A DNA stretch of 64,000 bases from assembly GCA_019454125.1 (NCBI GenBank), contig CP075365.1, positions 124,001-188,000 of the forward strand, given 5' to 3'. How positions within the stretch are numbered: position 1 is the first letter of the stretch; the number at the start of each line of letters is the position of its first letter. Source of the DNA: Fimbriimonadaceae bacterium (GTDB taxonomy: Bacteria > Armatimonadota > Fimbriimonadia > Fimbriimonadales > Fimbriimonadaceae). Shown here in pieces: positions 52,592 to 62,325 of the stretch. A program made the position numbers and the translations under genes. The notes under the pieces were generated by a model that was not told where the DNA came from, searched no databases, and was given only the letters and a program-made list of their open reading frames with translations.

Positions 52592-53509
52592 TCATTCGGT
52601 AAGACGGTCTCCAACGCTCAGGCGTGCCCCGTTTGCGTATTCGGGCCCGCTCATTCGTCGCTTTCCTTCCTGCTGGACCTCCAAAAGGTTGATCGCGCCA
52701 TCGGTAAAGCCCACGACGAGGCCGCCCTTCACCATCGCGACGACGCCCGGCCCGGGGGAGGCGTCGGTGACAAGCCGCGCCTGCGTCACCTTTAGCGGCC
52801 CGTCCTTGGTGCGGAGGAACGCGCCCGGGAACGGGGTGAACGCCCGAAAGCGGTTGTACTCGAGCTTGGCCGGGCTCTGGGGCTGGAGCTCCGCCTCGGC
52901 CTTCGTGACCTTGGCCGCGTGGGTCGCGAAGGCGTCGTCCTGCTTCTGGCGGGGATAGTCGCCTGCGACGATCAGCGGGAGCCAGCTGCGGGCGAGCTCG
53001 GCGGCAAGGCCGGCAAGCCGAGCAAAGAGCTCGCCGGCCGTTTCGTCCGGCCCGATCGAGCAAGACTCCGTCACGATGATGTCGCCCGTGTCCATGCCCT
53101 TGTCCATCTGCATGAGCGTCACCCCGGTGTACGTCTCGCCCGCTTCGACCGCCCGCTGGATCGGGGCCGCGCCGCGGTACCTCGGAAGCAAGGAGCCGTG
53201 CAGGTTGATCCCCCCGCGCCGGGTCGCGCCCAACATCGCCTCGCTCAGGATCTGTCCATAGGCCGCGACCAGGAGGCAGTCCGCGTCCAACCGCCGTATG
53301 CTCTCGACGAACTCAGGGGCGCGGCTCTTGACGGGCGTCTCGACCGGAAGGCCGAGCTCGATCGCCGCCTTTTTGACAGGAGAGGGCTTCAGGTCTAGGC
53401 CTCGGCCGCTCGGTCGGTCCGGCTGGCTGACCACCAGGGCCACGTGCGGCGCCACGGCACGCAACGCGGGGACGGCAAAGTCCGCCGTCCCCATATAGAC
53501 CACCTTCAC
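52592..53509 (-). CDS. fmt: Methionyl-tRNA formyltransferase
   Basis: Formylates initiator Met-tRNA with 10-formyl-THF. 305 residues: VVYMGTADFAVPALRA, VSQPDRPSGRG, SLLPRYRGAAPIQRAVEAGE (HGSLLPRYRGAAPIQ, catalytic His), TLMQMDKGMDTGDII and C-terminal FRAFTPFPGAFLRTKDG. GTG start at 53509 shares GTGA with the def stop. The pair def-fmt is a classic operon, with fmt product later processed by Def. A longer open frame upstream is spurious. Confidence 0.96.
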   Translation of the reverse strand: MKVVYMGTADFAVPALRAVAPHVALVVSQPDRPSGRGLDLKPSPVKKAAIELGLPVETPVKSRAPEFVESIRRLDADCLLVAAYGQILSEAMLGATRRGGINLHGSLLPRYRGAAPIQRAVEAGETYTGVTLMQMDKGMDTGDIIVTESCSIGPDETAGELFARLAGLAAELARSWLPLIVAGDYPRQKQDDAFATHAAKVTKAEAELQPQSPAKLEYNRFRAFTPFPGAFLRTKDGPLKVTQARLVTDASPGPGVVAMVKGGLVVGFTDGAINLLEVQQEGKRRMSGPEYANGARLSVGDRLTE

Positions 53510-54036
53510 TCGTCCCTCTCGTCCTGGTACGGATCCATCCAATGGAGCGTGGCGACATCGACCTTGTCGATGAACAGCACGCCGTCCAAGTGGTCGATCT
53601 CGTGCTGGACGATCCTTGCGGCGCTCCCTTCCATTTCGTACACCGCCTCGCGCCCGCGCCGGTCCAGCCCCTTCACCTCGACCATCTCGGCCCGCTTGAC
53701 GTCGCCGTAGAGGCCAGGGATGCTGAGGCAGCCTTCCTCGCCGACCTGCTCGCCCTCCGCGGTCACGATCTCCGGGTTGAAGAGCACCATCGGTCGTCCG
53801 TCCGGGATCAGGACGATGAGCCGTTCCAACACGCCGACCTGTGGCGCGGCGAGACCGACGCCGCGCGCCTTGCGCATGATCCGCGTCATGTTCTCGGCCA
53901 GGGCCAGGTGGCGCTTCGTAATCTTCTCGATCGGCTTGGCGACCTTGCGCAGGACCTCGGCCGGAACCTTTACGACCGGATGCTCATCGTCCTGAGCGTA
54001 GAGGTGCTTGTACTCGTCGGGTACGACGATATTCAT
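53506..54036 (-). CDS. def: Peptide deformylase
   Basis: Removes the N-formyl group of nascent proteins. 176 residues with the three metal-site boxes: GVGLAAPQVGV, EEGCLSIPG (metal Cys) and QHEIDHLDGVLF (HExxH). The catalytic Gln and Glu are within these boxes. ATG 54036 is preferred; the upstream in-frame MPSEYNGALTP is unlikely. Co-transcribed with prmC 59 bases upstream, and overlapping fmt by four bases. Confidence 0.97.
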   Translation of the reverse strand: MNIVVPDEYKHLYAQDDEHPVVKVPAEVLRKVAKPIEKITKRHLALAENMTRIMRKARGVGLAAPQVGVLERLIVLIPDGRPMVLFNPEIVTAEGEQVGEEGCLSIPGLYGDVKRAEMVEVKGLDRRGREAVYEMEGSAARIVQHEIDHLDGVLFIDKVDVATLHWMDPYQDERDE

Positions 54037-54095
54037 CGGGGTTAGGGCTCCATTGTACTCGGAAGGCACGTCAGGGGCCCCTGAACCGCCATCGG

Positions 54096-54905
54096 CTAGG
54101 CCCTTGCGAACGTCGCCGCCCTGGGCACACCACCCAGGTCGTCGGCCACGTCCTGCAAGACCCAGCCTCTTGGTTCGAACACCCCCCTGACGGCCTCCAG
54201 CATCCCGTCACCCAGCTCGACCAGCAACCGTCCCCAGGGCATCAGGTATGGCGCGGCCTCGTCCGCCAGGCGCCGATAGATGGCCAAGCCGTCCGGCCCA
54301 GCATAGAGCGCCACTTCCGGCTCATAGAGCGAAACGTCCGGGGGCAGCGCCGCCCCTTCCGCGATGTAGGGAGGATTGCTCACGATCAGCCCGAACTGCA
54401 TCCCCGCGAAGGGCTCGAACAGGTCCCCGTGGCGAAAGAGGACGACCGCGTCATGCTCCCGCGCATTGGCCCGCGCGACCCGCAGCGCCGCCGCAGAGAC
54501 GTCCACCGCCGCCACAAACCAGCTCGGCCGCTCCAGCTTCAGCGTGATCGCGAGGCAGCCTGACCCCGTGCCAACGTCCAGCACGCGGCCGCCAAGCCCG
54601 CCCAGGGCGGCCTCCACTAGGGTCTCGGTCTCTTGCCGCGGCACCAGCACGCCCGGCGCCACCCGGAACACGCGGCCATAGAAGTCGCGCGAACCCCGGA
54701 TATAGGCCAGCGGCTCGTGGGCCATCCTCCGCTCCAAGAGCGCGTCGGCACCGGGGGGAGCCAGCGACTCCGGGTGCGCCAGCACCCACGCCCGCCCCCG
54801 GCCCGTCGCCTGGGCCGCGAGCACCTGCGCCTCGAGGTCCGGCCTCTCGATCCCGACACGGCGGAGCCGGCCCGCGGCCGCCACCACCCACTCGCCGAGC
54901 GTCAT
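54096..54905 (-). CDS. prmC: Peptide chain release factor N5-glutamine methyltransferase
   Basis: SAM-dependent methylation of the GGQ glutamine in release factors RF1 and RF2. 269 residues: N-terminal helices (MTLGEWVVAAAGRLRRVGIERP), PLAYIRGSRDFYGRVFRV (RGxxxF), LVPRQETETLVEA, VLDVGTGSGCLAITLKLE (SAM site), SNPPYIAEG (NPPY catalytic) and EVALYAGPDGLAIYR. All PrmC hallmarks in order. The ATG 54905 is taken because the preceding 30 residues of open frame do not match. Leads the prmC-def-fmt-J-like operon. Confidence 0.94.
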   Translation of the reverse strand: MTLGEWVVAAAGRLRRVGIERPDLEAQVLAAQATGRGRAWVLAHPESLAPPGADALLERRMAHEPLAYIRGSRDFYGRVFRVAPGVLVPRQETETLVEAALGGLGGRVLDVGTGSGCLAITLKLERPSWFVAAVDVSAAALRVARANAREHDAVVLFRHGDLFEPFAGMQFGLIVSNPPYIAEGAALPPDVSLYEPEVALYAGPDGLAIYRRLADEAAPYLMPWGRLLVELGDGMLEAVRGVFEPRGWVLQDVADDLGGVPRAATFARA

Positions 54906-55044
54906 GCCACCGCAATTTACACCGAGCGCGCCTCTGGTCGACACAGGTGTGCCCCATGCCCAAACTTTTAGCTTGTTGAAAGAAGACCCCTTCATAGGAC
55001 TTTAGATCTGCCGATGCCTCTTTTGGGGTGGGTACTATCGCTTA

Positions 55045-55939: not shown

Positions 55940-56610
55940 CCCCAAGAGAAACGACTGGACCGCGATGGAGACGCGTCAACATCGCAAAGGCGGCACTGGT
56001 CGCTATCCCGTTGATTTTTGCGCTTACTATCGTGGCGGCCTTGTTTAGTCGACGAATGGACGAGCGGAGCACGTCTCTGGCTGCCGTCGAACGGCTTGCG
56101 GATGGGGACCTGGTCTCAGTCTACAAGCTCTGTTCGGAAGAAGAGCGAAGGGCCCTGGGATTATCGGAAGATGCTGTCCGGAGAATCGAACAAAGATTGG
56201 TGACGCCTTATGTCCAAGCGATCAAGCACAGCGGCAAGGTGCAAACCGACTGGATGGCGCCAATGGCAAGCGCAATCTCGTCGCAGGAGTTTGTGACGCT
56301 CAACGGGCAAACCGGTCGAATCGCGTTTCAAGTAGACAGGAACCCTGAAGGCGCATTCGCATCGTTCACCGCAGCCATCTTCGAATGCTGGGAACTGCGT
56401 GAGGCAGTGGAGAGAGAGAACCCTTCGCTACAACCCTTGGGAGGGCCGTCTTTGCTCGTCGCCGCACTAGAACGAGACCGCCCGTTCTTTGAATCGATCG
56501 GCTTTACCGGTTTCTTTAACCAGAAGACGAAACGCATTTGGACATGGGACGAGGCGCGGATGTACTGGTTGGAGCTTGAGGAGCTCAGACGCGATAACGA
56601 AAGAGACTAA
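55915..56610 (+). CDS. Unknown single-pass membrane protein
   Basis: A 231-residue protein with one membrane helix (about 25-43, KAALVAIPLIFALTIVAALFS), then an exported part of mixed alpha/beta nature: LAAVERLADGDLVSVYKLCSEEERRALGLSEDAVRRI, later FFNQKTKRIWTWDEARMYWLELEEL. No known domain. GTG start at 55915 lies inside the Cys-rich gene, so the trio forms one transcript. It may anchor or process the exported partners, which is inference from position only. Its end is followed by the hflX leader region. Confidence 0.65.
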   Translation: MPFASPVVTPRETTGPRWRRVNIAKAALVAIPLIFALTIVAALFSRRMDERSTSLAAVERLADGDLVSVYKLCSEEERRALGLSEDAVRRIEQRLVTPYVQAIKHSGKVQTDWMAPMASAISSQEFVTLNGQTGRIAFQVDRNPEGAFASFTAAIFECWELREAVERENPSLQPLGGPSLLVAALERDRPFFESIGFTGFFNQKTKRIWTWDEARMYWLELEELRRDNERD

Positions 56611-56677
56611 AGGGCCGGGCACTTGCCTGCATAGAGCCGGTGGACCAGCACGTTCCTGGCAAGGTGTCACCGCGAGC

Positions 56678-56707
56678 TTGACAAACCCCGCCCCGACCTG
56701 CCATAAT
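56678..56707 (+). promoter_or_regulatory. Sigma-70-like promoter upstream of hflX
   Basis: A perfect -35 TTGACA at 56678-56683, an 18-base spacer and CATAAT at 56702-56707, matching TATAAT in 5 of 6. A start near 56714 gives a leader of about 170 bases before the hflX start. It is the best promoter match I noticed in the window. Confidence 0.65.
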
Positions 56708-56722
56708 AGCGCTCGTCTTCTC

Positions 56723-56801
56723 ATGTGGCTGATCGACCTCTGAGTCGGCGCTCCTCGCCGACCGCCCCCAACTCACCGCCAACCCGCGCGGTCAGGTCGA
56801 T
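56723..56801 (+). promoter_or_regulatory. Structured hflX leader with six-codon ORF (possible attenuator)
   Basis: An ATG at 56723 opens MWLIDL followed by TGA at 56741-56743. Overlapping it are pairings: ATCGACCT 56732-56739 with AGGTCGAT 56794-56801 (8 perfect), GTCGGCG 56744-56750 with CGCCGAC 56756-56762 (7 perfect), and GACCGC 56760-56765 with GCGGTC 56788-56793 (6 perfect). The last two compete at 56760-56762. A ribosome on the small ORF would block the outer stem. No terminator T-run follows the stems, so any control may be at translation or by a later stem. Functional role is inference. Confidence 0.4.
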
Positions 56802-56886
56802 TCCTCGTTCTGCACCCCAAAGCCAGACTTTCGGCTGTCCGCGCCCCGTCACAGGCCCCATCGGCCGTCGTAGGGACAGATAAGCA

Positions 56887-58158
56887 TTGCCACAACCCAA
56901 AACCACCCAAGAAGCCCCGGAGCGCATCTTCCTCGTCTACGTCAATTCGGACGAGGCTGAGGACGCCTATTTCGAGATGGAGCTCGAGAGCCTCGTCGAC
57001 GCGGCCGGAGGCGTCGTCGCAGGGAGCACCCGCCAGCGCCTCGACCGCCCCCACGCCAAAAACTACGTCGGAACGGGCAAGGCCGAGGAGATCAAGGGCT
57101 ACGTCGCCGCCTCCGCCGCGGACACCGTTGTCGTCGATTCCGAGCTGAACGCCGTCCAGATCCGCAACCTGCAGGACAACGTCGGGTGCCGCGTCATCGA
57201 CCGCACCACCCTCATCCTGGACATCTTCGCCAAACGCGCCCGCACCCGGGAAGGCCAGCTGCAGGTCGAGCTCGCCCAGTACAGCTACATGCTCCCGCGC
57301 CTGATGAGCGTCTACACCAAGTTCGAACGCCAGCGCGGCGGCATCGGCATGCGCGGCCCCGGTGAGACCAAGCTCGAGTCAGACAGACGCATGGTCAACA
57401 ACCGGATCGCGAACCTGAAGGACGCGATCGAAGACGTCAAGCGCCAGCGGCAGCTCCAACGCGCCGCCCGCGGCGAGCAGCCCGTCCCCATCGTCTCGCT
57501 CGTCGGCTACACCAGCGCGGGCAAGAGCACGCTCATGAACCGCCTGGCCGGCACCCATGTCTACACCGACGCGATGCTCTTCGCCACGCTCGACCCCACC
57601 ACCCGCCGCGTCGAACTGCAAGACGGCTTCCCCGTCTTCCTCACCGACACCGTCGGCTTCATCCGCAACTTGCCGACCCAGCTCGTCGCCGCCTTCCGCG
57701 CCACCCTGGAAGAGGTCGCCGAGGCCCACTTGCTGCTGCACGTCGTGGACGTCAGCCACCCAAACTGGGAAGAGCAGCGCGACGCCGTGATCGAGACCGT
57801 CGCCTCGCTCGGCGCCGGAGAGGTTCCGATGCTCACCGTCTTCAACAAGATCGACGCCCTGCCCGACGCGACTTTGACGCGCCGGCTCGTGGCCGAGTGG
57901 CCCGACTCCGTCGCCGTCTCCGCCAAGACGGGCGAGGGCACCGAGGAGCTTATCGCCCACATCGCCGGGATGCTCAAAGAGCGTTACTCCCTCGTCCGCG
58001 CCCTCGTGCCCTATGGCTCCAACGGCCTCATCGAGGCCGCCCACAAGTACGGCCGTGTGCTGAAGGAGGAGTATCGCGAGGACGGCGTCTACCTGGAGGC
58101 CGAGGTCGTCCCCGAATGGCGCGCCAAGCTCGCGGAGTACGCGGTCGGCCCCTCGTAA
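56887..58158 (+). CDS. hflX: GTPase HflX
   Basis: Ribosome-associated GTPase that splits stalled ribosomes under stress. 423 residues: N-terminal HflX domain with NYVGTGKAEEIKGYV, ELNAVQIRNLQDNVGCRVIDRTTLILDIFAKRA; the RTREGQLQVELAQYSYMLPRL stretch; GGIGMRGPGETKLESDRRM; GTPase G1 GYTSAGKSTLMNRL, G3 DTVGFIRNLP, G4 FNKID and a C-terminal tail. A TTG at 56887 follows AGGGACAG. The gene has a strong promoter and a structured leader (see 56678-56801). HflX is often induced by translation inhibitors. Confidence 0.96.
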   Translation: MPQPKTTQEAPERIFLVYVNSDEAEDAYFEMELESLVDAAGGVVAGSTRQRLDRPHAKNYVGTGKAEEIKGYVAASAADTVVVDSELNAVQIRNLQDNVGCRVIDRTTLILDIFAKRARTREGQLQVELAQYSYMLPRLMSVYTKFERQRGGIGMRGPGETKLESDRRMVNNRIANLKDAIEDVKRQRQLQRAARGEQPVPIVSLVGYTSAGKSTLMNRLAGTHVYTDAMLFATLDPTTRRVELQDGFPVFLTDTVGFIRNLPTQLVAAFRATLEEVAEAHLLLHVVDVSHPNWEEQRDAVIETVASLGAGEVPMLTVFNKIDALPDATLTRRLVAEWPDSVAVSAKTGEGTEELIAHIAGMLKERYSLVRALVPYGSNGLIEAAHKYGRVLKEEYREDGVYLEAEVVPEWRAKLAEYAVGPS

Positions 58159-58267
58159 CGCACGTTTGTTCGTGAACGGGCGCACCTTGGCGCATACTGT
58201 CAGGGTGCGACCCGTGAACGGCCTGCGGAACCTTGGGCCGCTCCTGACGGGCGCCTGGAGACAGCCT

Positions 58268-59623
58268 ATGAACCGGACCGCACGAATATCGTTCCTCGCC
58301 GTCGGGGCCTTGGCCAGCCTCGGCATCGCCGCCCTCTTCTCCTTGCCAGCCGTCGCCCAGGTGGGCGGGACGTTGCCTGCCTACGTCGCCCTCCAGGCCC
58401 AGTCGCCCGGAACGCCGCAAGTCGGCAACTCGAACGTCGGCGGCACCGCCGCCGCCGAAAATGTCGTCGCCCGCGCCGGGGTGTCCACGCCCACGCTCAC
58501 CATCGGAAGCGCCCAGCCTGGCTACCCGATCCAATTCCCCAGCACCCTGGGCAGCAAAGTCTCGCTCTACGGCGAAAGCGGTGCGCACTACGGCATGGGT
58601 GTGCAGGGCTTCCTCTACCAGATCTACACCGACTCGCCCGCGGCCAGCATCGCGTTCGGCCATGGCTCCAGCGAGTTCTTCACCGAGGTCGCACGTTTCA
58701 CCGGCAACGGCCGGCTCGGCATCGGCACGACCAGTCCCGGTGTCGAGCTCGACGTCAACGGGAGGATCCGCATGCGGACGAACGCCATATCGAACGGCGT
58801 CATGATCGGTGACAACAACGGCTTCGCCTCCTGGAACCTGGTCGGGGCCAATTCGCTCCAGTTCGACCCCGGTTCGCTGGCTCGGGTCACGAACAACAGC
58901 TTCGGGATCGGTAGCTTCGGCCTCGCCGGCGCCGCCACAAAAGGCATCGAACTGTTCCGCACCGGCTCGAACGCGCCCATGATCAAGCTCAATCCCAACC
59001 CGGGGAACAGTGGCGAGGTCACCCTCTACGGCAACAACGACAGCATCAACATCCAGATGAACGGCCTCGGCGTGGACGCCCGTCGCGGGATCCTCTCCGC
59101 CTTTGACGAGACCTCTTTGCCGCGCGCCTCGATCTACGTCGACTCCAACCGACAGGGCCGAATCCAGGCCGAACTCAAGAACTTCCGCGTCCCCGATCCC
59201 ACCGACCCCAGGAAGGATATCGTCTACGCCTGCATCGAGGGCCCCGAGGCTGCAATGTACACGCGCGGAACAGGCCAGCTCGCCTCCGGCGCCGCCCGCG
59301 TCAGCCTCCCCGACCACTTCCTCAAGCTCGCCAACCTCGGCACGATGACCGTCCACCTCACGCCCCGCGGCGACTGCGAGGGCCTCTACTACCAGCGCGA
59401 CGGTGACGCCGTCATAGTCCGCGAGATGCGCAAAGGCACGTCCTCGGTCGAGTTCGACTGGGAGGTGAAGGCCGTCCGTCGCGGGTACGAGGACGAGAAG
59501 GTCTATGAAAACTGGGACGACAACCCCGCCCTCCCCAGGGGCAGCCGCGAGAATCAGTGGAAGGCCAGGCTGCAGGCTCTGGCTGAGGCCAAAGCCCGCC
59601 TCACCACCCCCTCCCGCCCCTGA
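58268..59623 (+). CDS. Secreted protein with SPGTPQ-type N-terminus and tail-fibre-like repeats
   Basis: A 451-residue exported protein: signal peptide (MNRTARISFLAVGALASLG to AVAQ), then 'ALQAQSPGTPQVGNSNVGG', a beta-rich middle with 'VELDVNGRIRMRTN', 'GIGTTSPGVELDVN' resembling repeats of phage tail fibres and cell-wall proteins, and a C-terminal domain with RKDIVYACIEGPEAAMYTRGTGQL and VHLTPRGDCEGLYYQRDG. No known enzyme. It shares the N-terminal motif with the 61167 protein. Start ATG 58268; a longer frame from 58166 is unlikely. Surface role is inferred. Confidence 0.75.
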   Translation: MNRTARISFLAVGALASLGIAALFSLPAVAQVGGTLPAYVALQAQSPGTPQVGNSNVGGTAAAENVVARAGVSTPTLTIGSAQPGYPIQFPSTLGSKVSLYGESGAHYGMGVQGFLYQIYTDSPAASIAFGHGSSEFFTEVARFTGNGRLGIGTTSPGVELDVNGRIRMRTNAISNGVMIGDNNGFASWNLVGANSLQFDPGSLARVTNNSFGIGSFGLAGAATKGIELFRTGSNAPMIKLNPNPGNSGEVTLYGNNDSINIQMNGLGVDARRGILSAFDETSLPRASIYVDSNRQGRIQAELKNFRVPDPTDPRKDIVYACIEGPEAAMYTRGTGQLASGAARVSLPDHFLKLANLGTMTVHLTPRGDCEGLYYQRDGDAVIVREMRKGTSSVEFDWEVKAVRRGYEDEKVYENWDDNPALPRGSRENQWKARLQALAEAKARLTTPSRP

Positions 59624-59639: not shown

Positions 59640-60225
59640 CGTCAACCCAACCTCCCCATCTCCCTTCCGAGGGAGAGGGGGCCAGGGGGGTGAGGGAATC
59701 GCGGCCCAGATGCGCGCGGCCAAGCACCTTTACCGGCCACGACCTAGCTGGAATCGCCTGACCGCGCCCGCGAAGAAACTGACGGCCTAAAATCCGCCTT
59801 CCCCTCCCCTGGCCCCTCCCCAAGCTTGGGGAGGGGGAGTGGGCTCCGGACTCCCACTCGCCCTTCCGAGGGAGAGGGGGTACCCAATCCGCGAAGGAGC
59901 GGACAGCCTAGGATCCGGCTTCCCCTCCCCTGGCCCCTCCCCAAGCTTGGGGAGGGGGAGTGGGCTCCGGACTCCCACGCGCCCTTCCGAGGGAGAGGGG
60001 GTGCCCCATCCGCGAAGGAGCGGACAGCCTAGGATCCGCCTTCCCCTCCCCTGGCCCCTCCCCAAGCGTGGGGAGGGGGAGGGGGTTCCGGGCTCCCACT
60101 CGCCCTTCCGAGGGAGAGGGGGTACCCCATCCGCGAAGAAACTGACGGCCCAAAATCCGCCTTCCCCTCCCCTGGCCCCTCCCCAAGCTTGGGGAGGGGG
60201 AGTGGGCTCCGGACTCTCCCTCTCC
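59640..60225. repeat. 121-bp tandem repeat of palindromic GC-rich units (775-bp gap without a gene)
   Basis: The gap 59624-60398 holds no credible gene. Copies of the CTTCCCCTCCCCTGGCCCCT start at 59798, 59919, 60040 and 60161, exactly 121 bases apart. Each unit has a perfect 24-base palindrome centred on AAGCTT (59813-59836 in the first copy; one copy has AAGCGT), a second inverted block CTCCC..GGGAG, and a GATCC/AATCC link. A partial unit without that palindrome lies at 59640-59700. Translations give proline-glycine strings; those open frames are spurious. Between 60226 and 60398 I see nothing clear. Confidence 0.85.
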
Positions 60226-60398
60226 CTTCCAAGGGAGTCGCGGGCTGCGCACGATGGTCGGCCCTTTGTTGCACCGTTGTTTCCCCCTTGCTGCACCGCA
60301 TTTGCACCGCTGGCCAGCGGGGGAGGGGTGGGGTTTGGAGGATCAGGCTTGGGGTTTCGGGTGGGGAATCGACCGGGTTATGCCGACGATTCCCTCGT

Positions 60399-61166: not shown

Positions 61167-62213
61167 TCAGTCAAACGCGGAAGGCAGCGTCGGGACGGGG
61201 GTCGAAGCGGCCTCGTACTGCGCGCGCGCCGCCCTATAGGATTCCGCCTCCCTCGGGCGTTTCGCAGCCCACTCGGCATCCTCCCGGAAGCTGTGGCGGG
61301 GAGGGGCGAACGGTTGCGACCCCTGGGGGTTTGGCACCCGCTTATAGACCACGAAGCTGAAGGCCGTTTGGTCTGCGACCGCCGAAGTGTTCGCCGTGAC
61401 GACCAAGAACTTCCCGCCAACACTGCCTGTACGAGCGAAGCCTTGGCTGAGCCGGGTCACGACCGTCGCGTATTCGCTGAAGAAGAACGACTCTCCCGTT
61501 ATCGTGATTTCGTACCGGTCCAACCCCGAGTTGTACGTGGACGTCCAGTTCTGGGTGCCGCTGGAAACCCCGCCTGAAAAATCGACTTGTCCATAGGCGA
61601 CTGGCACCATGGCAGCGTCGCCGCCGGCGTAGCCATGTTTCGGCAGGGCCCCGCCCGTGCGGAGAGAGTCGGTGCCGGTCGCCGCAGTGAAGGAGTTGCC
61701 GCTGATGTTGTTCCGGCCTGCAACCGCGATTCCGTTCGCGCTATAGGCCTCGCCAAACACGCCCGTGCCCGCGCCGTCTTGCTTGCGCTGGATCCCCCAG
61801 ATCGCCACACCATTGTTGGAACGGTTGTAGAAGAGGCCCCCGACCGTGGACCCCGTGGCGCTCATGGCGTCGGCGACGAGCGCGCGCCCGCCGACGGAGT
61901 TCGTCGTGAAGTAACCGCCGGCGCCCAAACCACTGGCGGCAGTGTTCTTTCCATAGACGCTCACACCGCTTGCGGTCTCCGCCCGCACCCCCTGCAGCGT
62001 GCCGCCTTCGTTGACTTGGACCCGGGCGAGGCTGGGGTCCGTCCCGAGGCCCACCCTACGGCCGAGGATGTTTCCCGTGACGTTGATGTGGCCGGTCTGG
62101 GGCGTGCCGGGCGTCGAGTCCTGCAGGTTGACGAAGCCAGCGGCGATCGCACCGCCGGCCACTGCGCCGGAGACCGTCGCCGAGAAGAAGCTGACCAAGA
62201 GATGAGTTTTCAT
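61167..62213 (-). CDS. Secreted protein with SPGTPQ-like N-terminus
   Basis: A 348-residue exported protein: signal-like start MKTHLLVSFFSATVSGAVAGG, then 'LQDSTPGTPQTGHINVTGNILG', parallel to 'LQAQSPGTPQVGNSNVGG' of the 58268 protein. The middle has Gly-rich repeats (GVSVYGKNTAASGLGAGGYF, GNSFTAATGTDSL, GVAIWGIQ), and the C-terminus is a beta domain with TITGESFFFSEYATVVTRL, ending in RAQYEAASTPVPTLPSAFD. I take ATG 62213; a longer frame to 62258 adds only 15 unlikely residues. No family known. Confidence 0.72.
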   Translation of the reverse strand: MKTHLLVSFFSATVSGAVAGGAIAAGFVNLQDSTPGTPQTGHINVTGNILGRRVGLGTDPSLARVQVNEGGTLQGVRAETASGVSVYGKNTAASGLGAGGYFTTNSVGGRALVADAMSATGSTVGGLFYNRSNNGVAIWGIQRKQDGAGTGVFGEAYSANGIAVAGRNNISGNSFTAATGTDSLRTGGALPKHGYAGGDAAMVPVAYGQVDFSGGVSSGTQNWTSTYNSGLDRYEITITGESFFFSEYATVVTRLSQGFARTGSVGGKFLVVTANTSAVADQTAFSFVVYKRVPNPQGSQPFAPPRHSFREDAEWAAKRPREAESYRAARAQYEAASTPVPTLPSAFD

Positions 62214-62325
62214 GGTTGCACCAAAGCTCTCTAAACCGAGCTTGGCAAACCTTACCATTAAGTTTTAGACGCCACTGAACGTTGAATTCTGCGAGGGCGG
62301 GGGCGGCCAAGCTCCATCGGGCATA

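Follow-up and report, generated by a model that had tools for sequence, protein, structure and literature searches.

The hflX locus and its leader

The window considered here is a 64-kb stretch of DNA (G000:C1:124001-188000) from the genome G000, whose nearest relatives are Fimbriimonadaceae (Armatimonadota), and it carries on the plus strand a single-copy gene for the ribosome-splitting GTPase HflX (56887-58158; TIGR03156, PF13167, PF16360 and PF01926). The product scores 454.8 bits against TIGR03156 (cut-off 216.75), and a PF13167 search of the whole 2.65-Mb genome retrieved this one gene. Its start is TTG 56887, the sole possible one, given that an in-frame stop codon two codons upstream precludes any earlier start.

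Near hflX, the minus strand encodes a fmt-like ORF (52592-53542), def (53509-54069) and prmC (54099-54995), and in several relatives a PrmC-like protein is apparently encoded just past the 3' end of hflX in the same direction, as judged by eye. Two predicted exported proteins with no Pfam match (58166-59623, plus strand, and 61167-62258, minus strand) have an N-terminal segment in common (YVALQAQSPGTPQVGNSNV / FVNLQDSTPGTPQTGHINV), with 36% over 81 aa and an E of 2e-6 when compared as a single pair. A tandem array of a GC-rich 121-bp unit occupies 59768-60237 (3.9 copies, 90% matches). Fragments of 30 nt related to the unit occur at 59652 and as far as 60243, and the long ORFs that cross the array are probably not genuine.

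A sequence-only reading of the region ahead of hflX had described a promoter, a mini-ORF overlapping a stem, and competing stems, had proposed that ribosome stalling on the ORF reshapes these stems and tunes hflX, and had named RNA folding, covariation and conservation of the small ORF as ways to check this. The elements themselves are borne out. The promoter TTGACA-18-CATAAT (56678-56707, plus strand; TTGACA 56678-56683, CATAAT 56702-56707) matches the consensus at 11/12 positions and is the only sigma70-like site within 56300-57200, a span of 900 bases where 0.1 would be expected by chance. The same scan found no such site downstream of 56801, and it thus gave no sign of a transcription start beyond this point, which that reading had named as a refutation. 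Among relatives the -10 box is kept, while conservation of the -35 box is not obvious. The mini-ORF (uORF), MWLIDL*, spans 56723-56743 on the plus strand, from ATG 56723 to the stop TGA 56741-56743; it begins 164 nt before hflX and 15 nt past the -10 box and has no Shine-Dalgarno (SD) sequence. From the promoter position, its 5' UTR is expected to measure ~8-9 nt.

The stem, P1, has its 5' arm GATCGACCT (56731-56739) inside the uORF and its 3' arm AGGTCGATT at 56794-56802, both on the plus strand; its core pairs ATCGACCT (56732-56739) with AGGTCGAT (56794-56801), and an extra wobble G56731-U56802 extends it from 8 to 9 bp. Against dinucleotide shuffles P1 reaches p about 0.004-0.010, and taken alone the window is modest evidence for it. 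It encloses two plus-strand hairpins, P2 (GTCGGCG-CTCCT-CGCCGAC, 56744-56762, arms 56744-56750 and 56756-56762) and P3 (ACCGC/GCGGT, 56775-56792). An alternative helix, GACCGC (56760-56765) with GCGGTC (56788-56793), would compete with both, and its overlap with P2 agrees with the competition that had been placed at 56760-56762. The minimum-free-energy fold of the 87-nt domain (-30.9 kcal/mol) includes P1 and the two inner hairpins, with z = -2.71 and none of 200 shuffles as good, and this is the only place in the 64-kb window where a good -10 box is followed within 8-15 nt by a mini-ORF and accompanied by a P1-grade helix. A further plus-strand helix, AP, would exclude the full P1 domain by pairing GCGCGG (56786-56791) with CCGCGC (56839-56844), a GCGCC-like motif between P1 and hflX. 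AP is suggestive, with p 0.154 in the window and 0.012 combined over ten lineages, and it appears in folds with the uORF start blocked in silico. In Rfam, searched with the window at gathering score and with the leader by E-value, no family matched.

Conservation and distribution across relatives

We took, oriented and scanned 102 hflX upstream regions, drawn from almost the entire family and from some of the order. A common layout recurs in those relatives that have a leader, namely a -10 box, 9 nt, an ATG, a tiny ORF, and a P1 helix closing 1-3 hairpins, with hflX beginning about 140-190 nt past the uORF ATG. The spacing between -10 box and ATG is exactly 9 nt in 12 of 14 leaders, 10 nt in G002 and 15 nt in the window. 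The uORFs, 2-7 codons long and at the same place before hflX, encode MWLIDL (G000), MILFDL (G001), MILITL (G002), MIIFTLN (G107), MI (G006), MRLL (G015), MRLR (G088), MKL (G102, G103, G104, G105 and G106) and MKI (G108); conservation of the small ORF is thus established, and the apparently near-leaderless position that it occupies in almost all relatives had gone unmentioned in the sequence-only reading. In each case the helix joins ORF nt about 7-22 to a stretch that lies about 70-125 nt downstream. Measured from the A of the uORF start codon, the 5' arm of P1 sets in after 7-14 nt however long the ORF is, a regularity likewise absent from that reading, and its distance to the stop is not fixed. 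Hairpins inside P1 are present in all relatives and differ in sequence and number.

The frame itself also appears to be maintained. Within genus g30 it is constantly MK[L/I]*, encoded by differing codons (AAG CTC TAA, AAA TTG TAA, AAA ATC TGA), and G000, G001 and G002 keep M-x-L-x-x-L with exchange of TGA and TAA. These synonymous changes, together with the ORF length and fixed position, suggest that the uORF is translated.

The enrichment of this arrangement upstream of hflX was assessed with a descriptor consisting of a -10 box with at least 4/6 matches, 8-10 nt, an ATG and an ORF of 2-8 codons, a helix being counted as strong at a helix score of at least 17. The background yielded 20 matches per 441,847 bases (strong helix in 4/20), and about 30 kb upstream of hflX yielded 17 matches against about 1.3 expected. 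A strong helix accompanied 12 of these 17, with about 0.27 expected, and the joint enrichment, counted as about 8 lineages, has p about 5e-10. By spacing, 14 mini-ORFs upstream of hflX (including two secondary matches, in G105 and G106) lie at 9 nt, and 0-2 at each other spacing in the range 4-20. ORFs of at most 8 codons make up 14/15 upstream of hflX vs 18.5% in the background.

Comparison of P1 with shuffled downstream sequence gave a Fisher p of 2.4e-9 over ten collapsed lineages, with search ranges that were set after the first examples were known, and P1 is present in the fold of each of the ten domains tested, with z from -1.6 to -5.5. Automatic alignment with MAFFT/RNAalifold misregistered the arms and returned no consensus for all leaders or for six g30 leaders, and covariation was therefore counted within g30, the best-sampled genus, on arms placed by hand, a procedure biased in favour of the structure. 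Counted in this way, the covariation that had been called for is found: 7/11 P1 pairs show two-sided change and 83.6% of cells are paired, a two-sided count matched in 0/500 shuffles and reaching at most 4 in slid registers.

A tree of 44 HflX sequences places 12 of 13 leaders within a single half of the family (24 rows), where leader-bearing lineages are interleaved with OMP-hflX lineages; many hflX genes follow an outer-membrane-protein (OMP)-like gene by a few nt, and these OMP-hflX operons have no leader. The simplest reading of this pattern would be one gain followed by losses. The leader of G006 (L018) lies in the other half of the tree and may have an independent origin. It combines a 13-bp P1 (TAAGGAGGTCTAG/CTGGACCTTCTTG) with an MI* frame at spacing 9 just past the stop of the upstream gene, and the 3' side of its P1 could also pair with the hflX SD (CTTCTTGG/CTAGGAGG), making an outlying or independent form with opposite polarity possible. 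In G009 (L029), G101 (L114) and G028 (L024), the start codon of hflX itself is preceded by CATAAT at a distance of 6-8 nt, which would fit leaderless transcription of the gene in these genomes. Two weak candidates were set aside: G030 (MILFS*, spacing 9), probably a leader with a weak P1, and G014 (MKN*), with a spacing of 25 and no P1. The scan found no leader in other families of the order, and none of P1 grade in 40 hflX upstream regions from other Armatimonadota classes. Within the g30 genomes, 6 of 7 matches to the pattern -10/N9/ATG-AAR-NTN-stop are at hflX, so the device looks gene-specific; the one match elsewhere is a -10/N9/MKL* at G108:C253:7242-7268 (L167).

Proposed gating of hflX by ribosomes on the mini-ORF

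Taken together, these features probably describe a ribosome-gated, cis-acting attenuator of a housekeeping hflX, in which occupancy of the mini-ORF opens P1 and induces the gene; translation of the ORF, P1 as the OFF state, the sign of the response and the inducing signal are the parts of this model that we infer. Transcription would start a few bases before the ATG of the 2-7-codon ORF, and P1 would form between ORF nt about 7-22 and the downstream segment whenever the ORF is translated quickly or never. A ribosome held at the start or first codons, by an inhibitor of initiation or early elongation or by other translation stress, would cover the 5' arm and block P1. The leader would then refold, plausibly via AP, and raise the level of HflX, the factor by which ribosomes stuck in this way are split.

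The geometry bears directly on the sensing step. With only 7-14 nt between the A of the ATG and the P1 5' arm, P1 and a ribosome on the start or first codons have to be mutually exclusive. The constancy of this distance, together with the apparently near-leaderless ORF, suggests that the step being sensed is initiation or the reading of the first codons. A single drug-specific stall motif is disfavoured because the uORF peptides vary. The earlier proposal that stalling reshapes the stems and tunes hflX is thus anatomically well grounded, given that an ORF-bound ribosome would need to open P1; stalling by a drug may be the signal, and it may raise hflX.

The route from the leader to hflX is less clear-cut, as folding showed no consistent effect on SD accessibility and the leaders have no common terminator. 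Across leaders, ribosome-blocked folding produced no consistent change in accessibility of the hflX SD: when the uORF start was blocked in silico, the hflX start codon opened in G001, G015, G088, G102 and G103 and closed in G002, G104 and G106. Sequestration of the SD by the uORF region ('P0') was set aside, with a combined p of 0.20 over ten lineages and pairing above chance solely in G088 and G102/G103 (p 0.01-0.04; G015 0.07). No intrinsic terminator in the form of a T-tailed hairpin was found in the window or G001, and no type is common to the leaders; T-tailed, terminator-like hairpins occur mainly in T-rich members. In the GC-rich leaders, that of the window among them, C exceeds G by up to 18-21 per 60 nt, and this richness in C may permit Rho-dependent attenuation.

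Because P1 and its inner hairpins form a compact domain, the uORF peptides vary, and the folds pointed to no common output step, the leader could also be read as a folded RNA whose partner is a protein or a small molecule, in riboswitch-like or autogenous fashion, with the mini-ORF as an incidental or decoy element. We regard this as unlikely: no loop or ligand-core-like motif is conserved across leaders and nothing in Rfam matches, whereas the ATG, the short frame and the synonymous changes are conserved and the P1 arm is positioned relative to the ATG. A 5' stabiliser or insulator, in which P1 and the hairpins serve to shield the transcript while near-leaderless ORFs simply happen to be frequent near promoters in these genomes, would leave unexplained both the short stop-ended frame in nearly all leaders and its overlap with P1 at a fixed distance. 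We likewise consider it improbable, although short 5' UTRs are not rare here, given that a -10 box precedes a possible start by 6-15 nt in 4 of the window's 51 long ORFs, and although in G009, G101 and G028 hflX itself seems to lack a leader. It is very unlikely that the TCATGA-like palindrome around the ATG is the operator of a regulator that acts in trans close to the transcription start; many leaders do have TCATGA or something close to it, but several are without it (window CTCATGTGG, G015 CCATGC), and an operator predicts neither P1 with its covariation nor the short frames. Least credible of all is a functionless small ORF and stem arising by chance, since, however common 8-bp complementarities and mini-ORFs each are and however limited the P1 of the window alone (p about 0.004-0.01), about ten divergent leaders carry the arrangement at the same position, and it shows covariation.

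A distance of 9 nt between -10 box and ATG implies, from the predicted transcription start, a 5' UTR of about 0-4 nt; for the species of the window, the spacing of 15 nt weighs slightly against strict leaderlessness. The ribosomes that bind leaderless AUGs are mainly intact 70S particles (PMC9031893), and 70S ribosomes are what HflX splits (PMC4770234). We tentatively raise the rather speculative possibility that the leaderless uORF is read by undissociated 70S ribosomes, such that surplus or stalled 70S would engage the AUG at the 5' end, hold P1 open and raise HflX, which would in turn remove them. If true, this would constitute direct product-substrate feedback, in which the uORF reports the substrate of the enzyme under its control, and near-leaderless minimal ORFs allow the reading of a uORF by 70S ribosomes to be put to the test.

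Relation to known uORF leaders

Among the papers searched, none describes such an hflX leader for Armatimonadota. The closest parallels come from Firmicutes, to whose hflX/hflXr and vmlR uORF leaders the present one would be analogous and, apparently, independent. In Listeria monocytogenes, the rli80 leader of hflXr (lmo0762) carries a small ORF that overlaps its first RNA element (PMC6310831), and the likeness extends to a small-ORF leader before an hflX homologue that is reshaped by ribosome occupancy. However, rli80 has a 14-codon ORF with RLR, an intrinsic terminator and antiterminator, and a resistance paralogue downstream (PMC6310831), whereas the leader described here belongs to another phylum, has 2-7 codons, is predicted to be near-leaderless, shares no terminator and precedes a single housekeeping hflX. 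RLR is absent from the MWLIDL of the window and occurs among the leaders in G088 (MRLR*) only, the single PF13167 gene leaves no second, resistance-type hflX copy, and an rli80-type intrinsic terminator is seen in neither the window nor G001.

The uORFC-6-1 motif, which lies before hflX in Bacillales (PMC8632094), likewise combines a uORF with a covarying RNA structure downstream of its start and, compared by description, differs in its conserved RLR peptide and Firmicutes range. The placement of P1 matches the geometry of the vmlR leader of Bacillus subtilis, where a 3-codon uORF (MIN) sits in the first stem-loop, which is opened by ribosome occupancy. That leader responds to inhibitors of the initiation stage and tolerates variants of the peptide (PMC9226507). 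That uORF, however, has an SD, and its leader has an intrinsic terminator and controls an ABC-F gene (PMC9226507). Compared with the known hflX uORF leaders, the apparently near-leaderless uORF is a new feature. Overall, the locus offers a covariation-supported candidate for a uORF attenuator of a ribosome-rescue factor in Armatimonadota, at a single housekeeping hflX rather than a resistance paralogue. Added to the Firmicutes cases, it suggests that uORF control of hflX has arisen on more than one occasion.

One link to macrolide leaders of the erm type concerns the peptides themselves. G088 (genus g15) encodes exactly MRLR*, a short sequence to which macrolide-dependent stalling is ascribed (ErmDL; PMC8298421), and G015 encodes MRLL*; unlike erm-type leaders, the other hflX leaders here have no +X+ motif.
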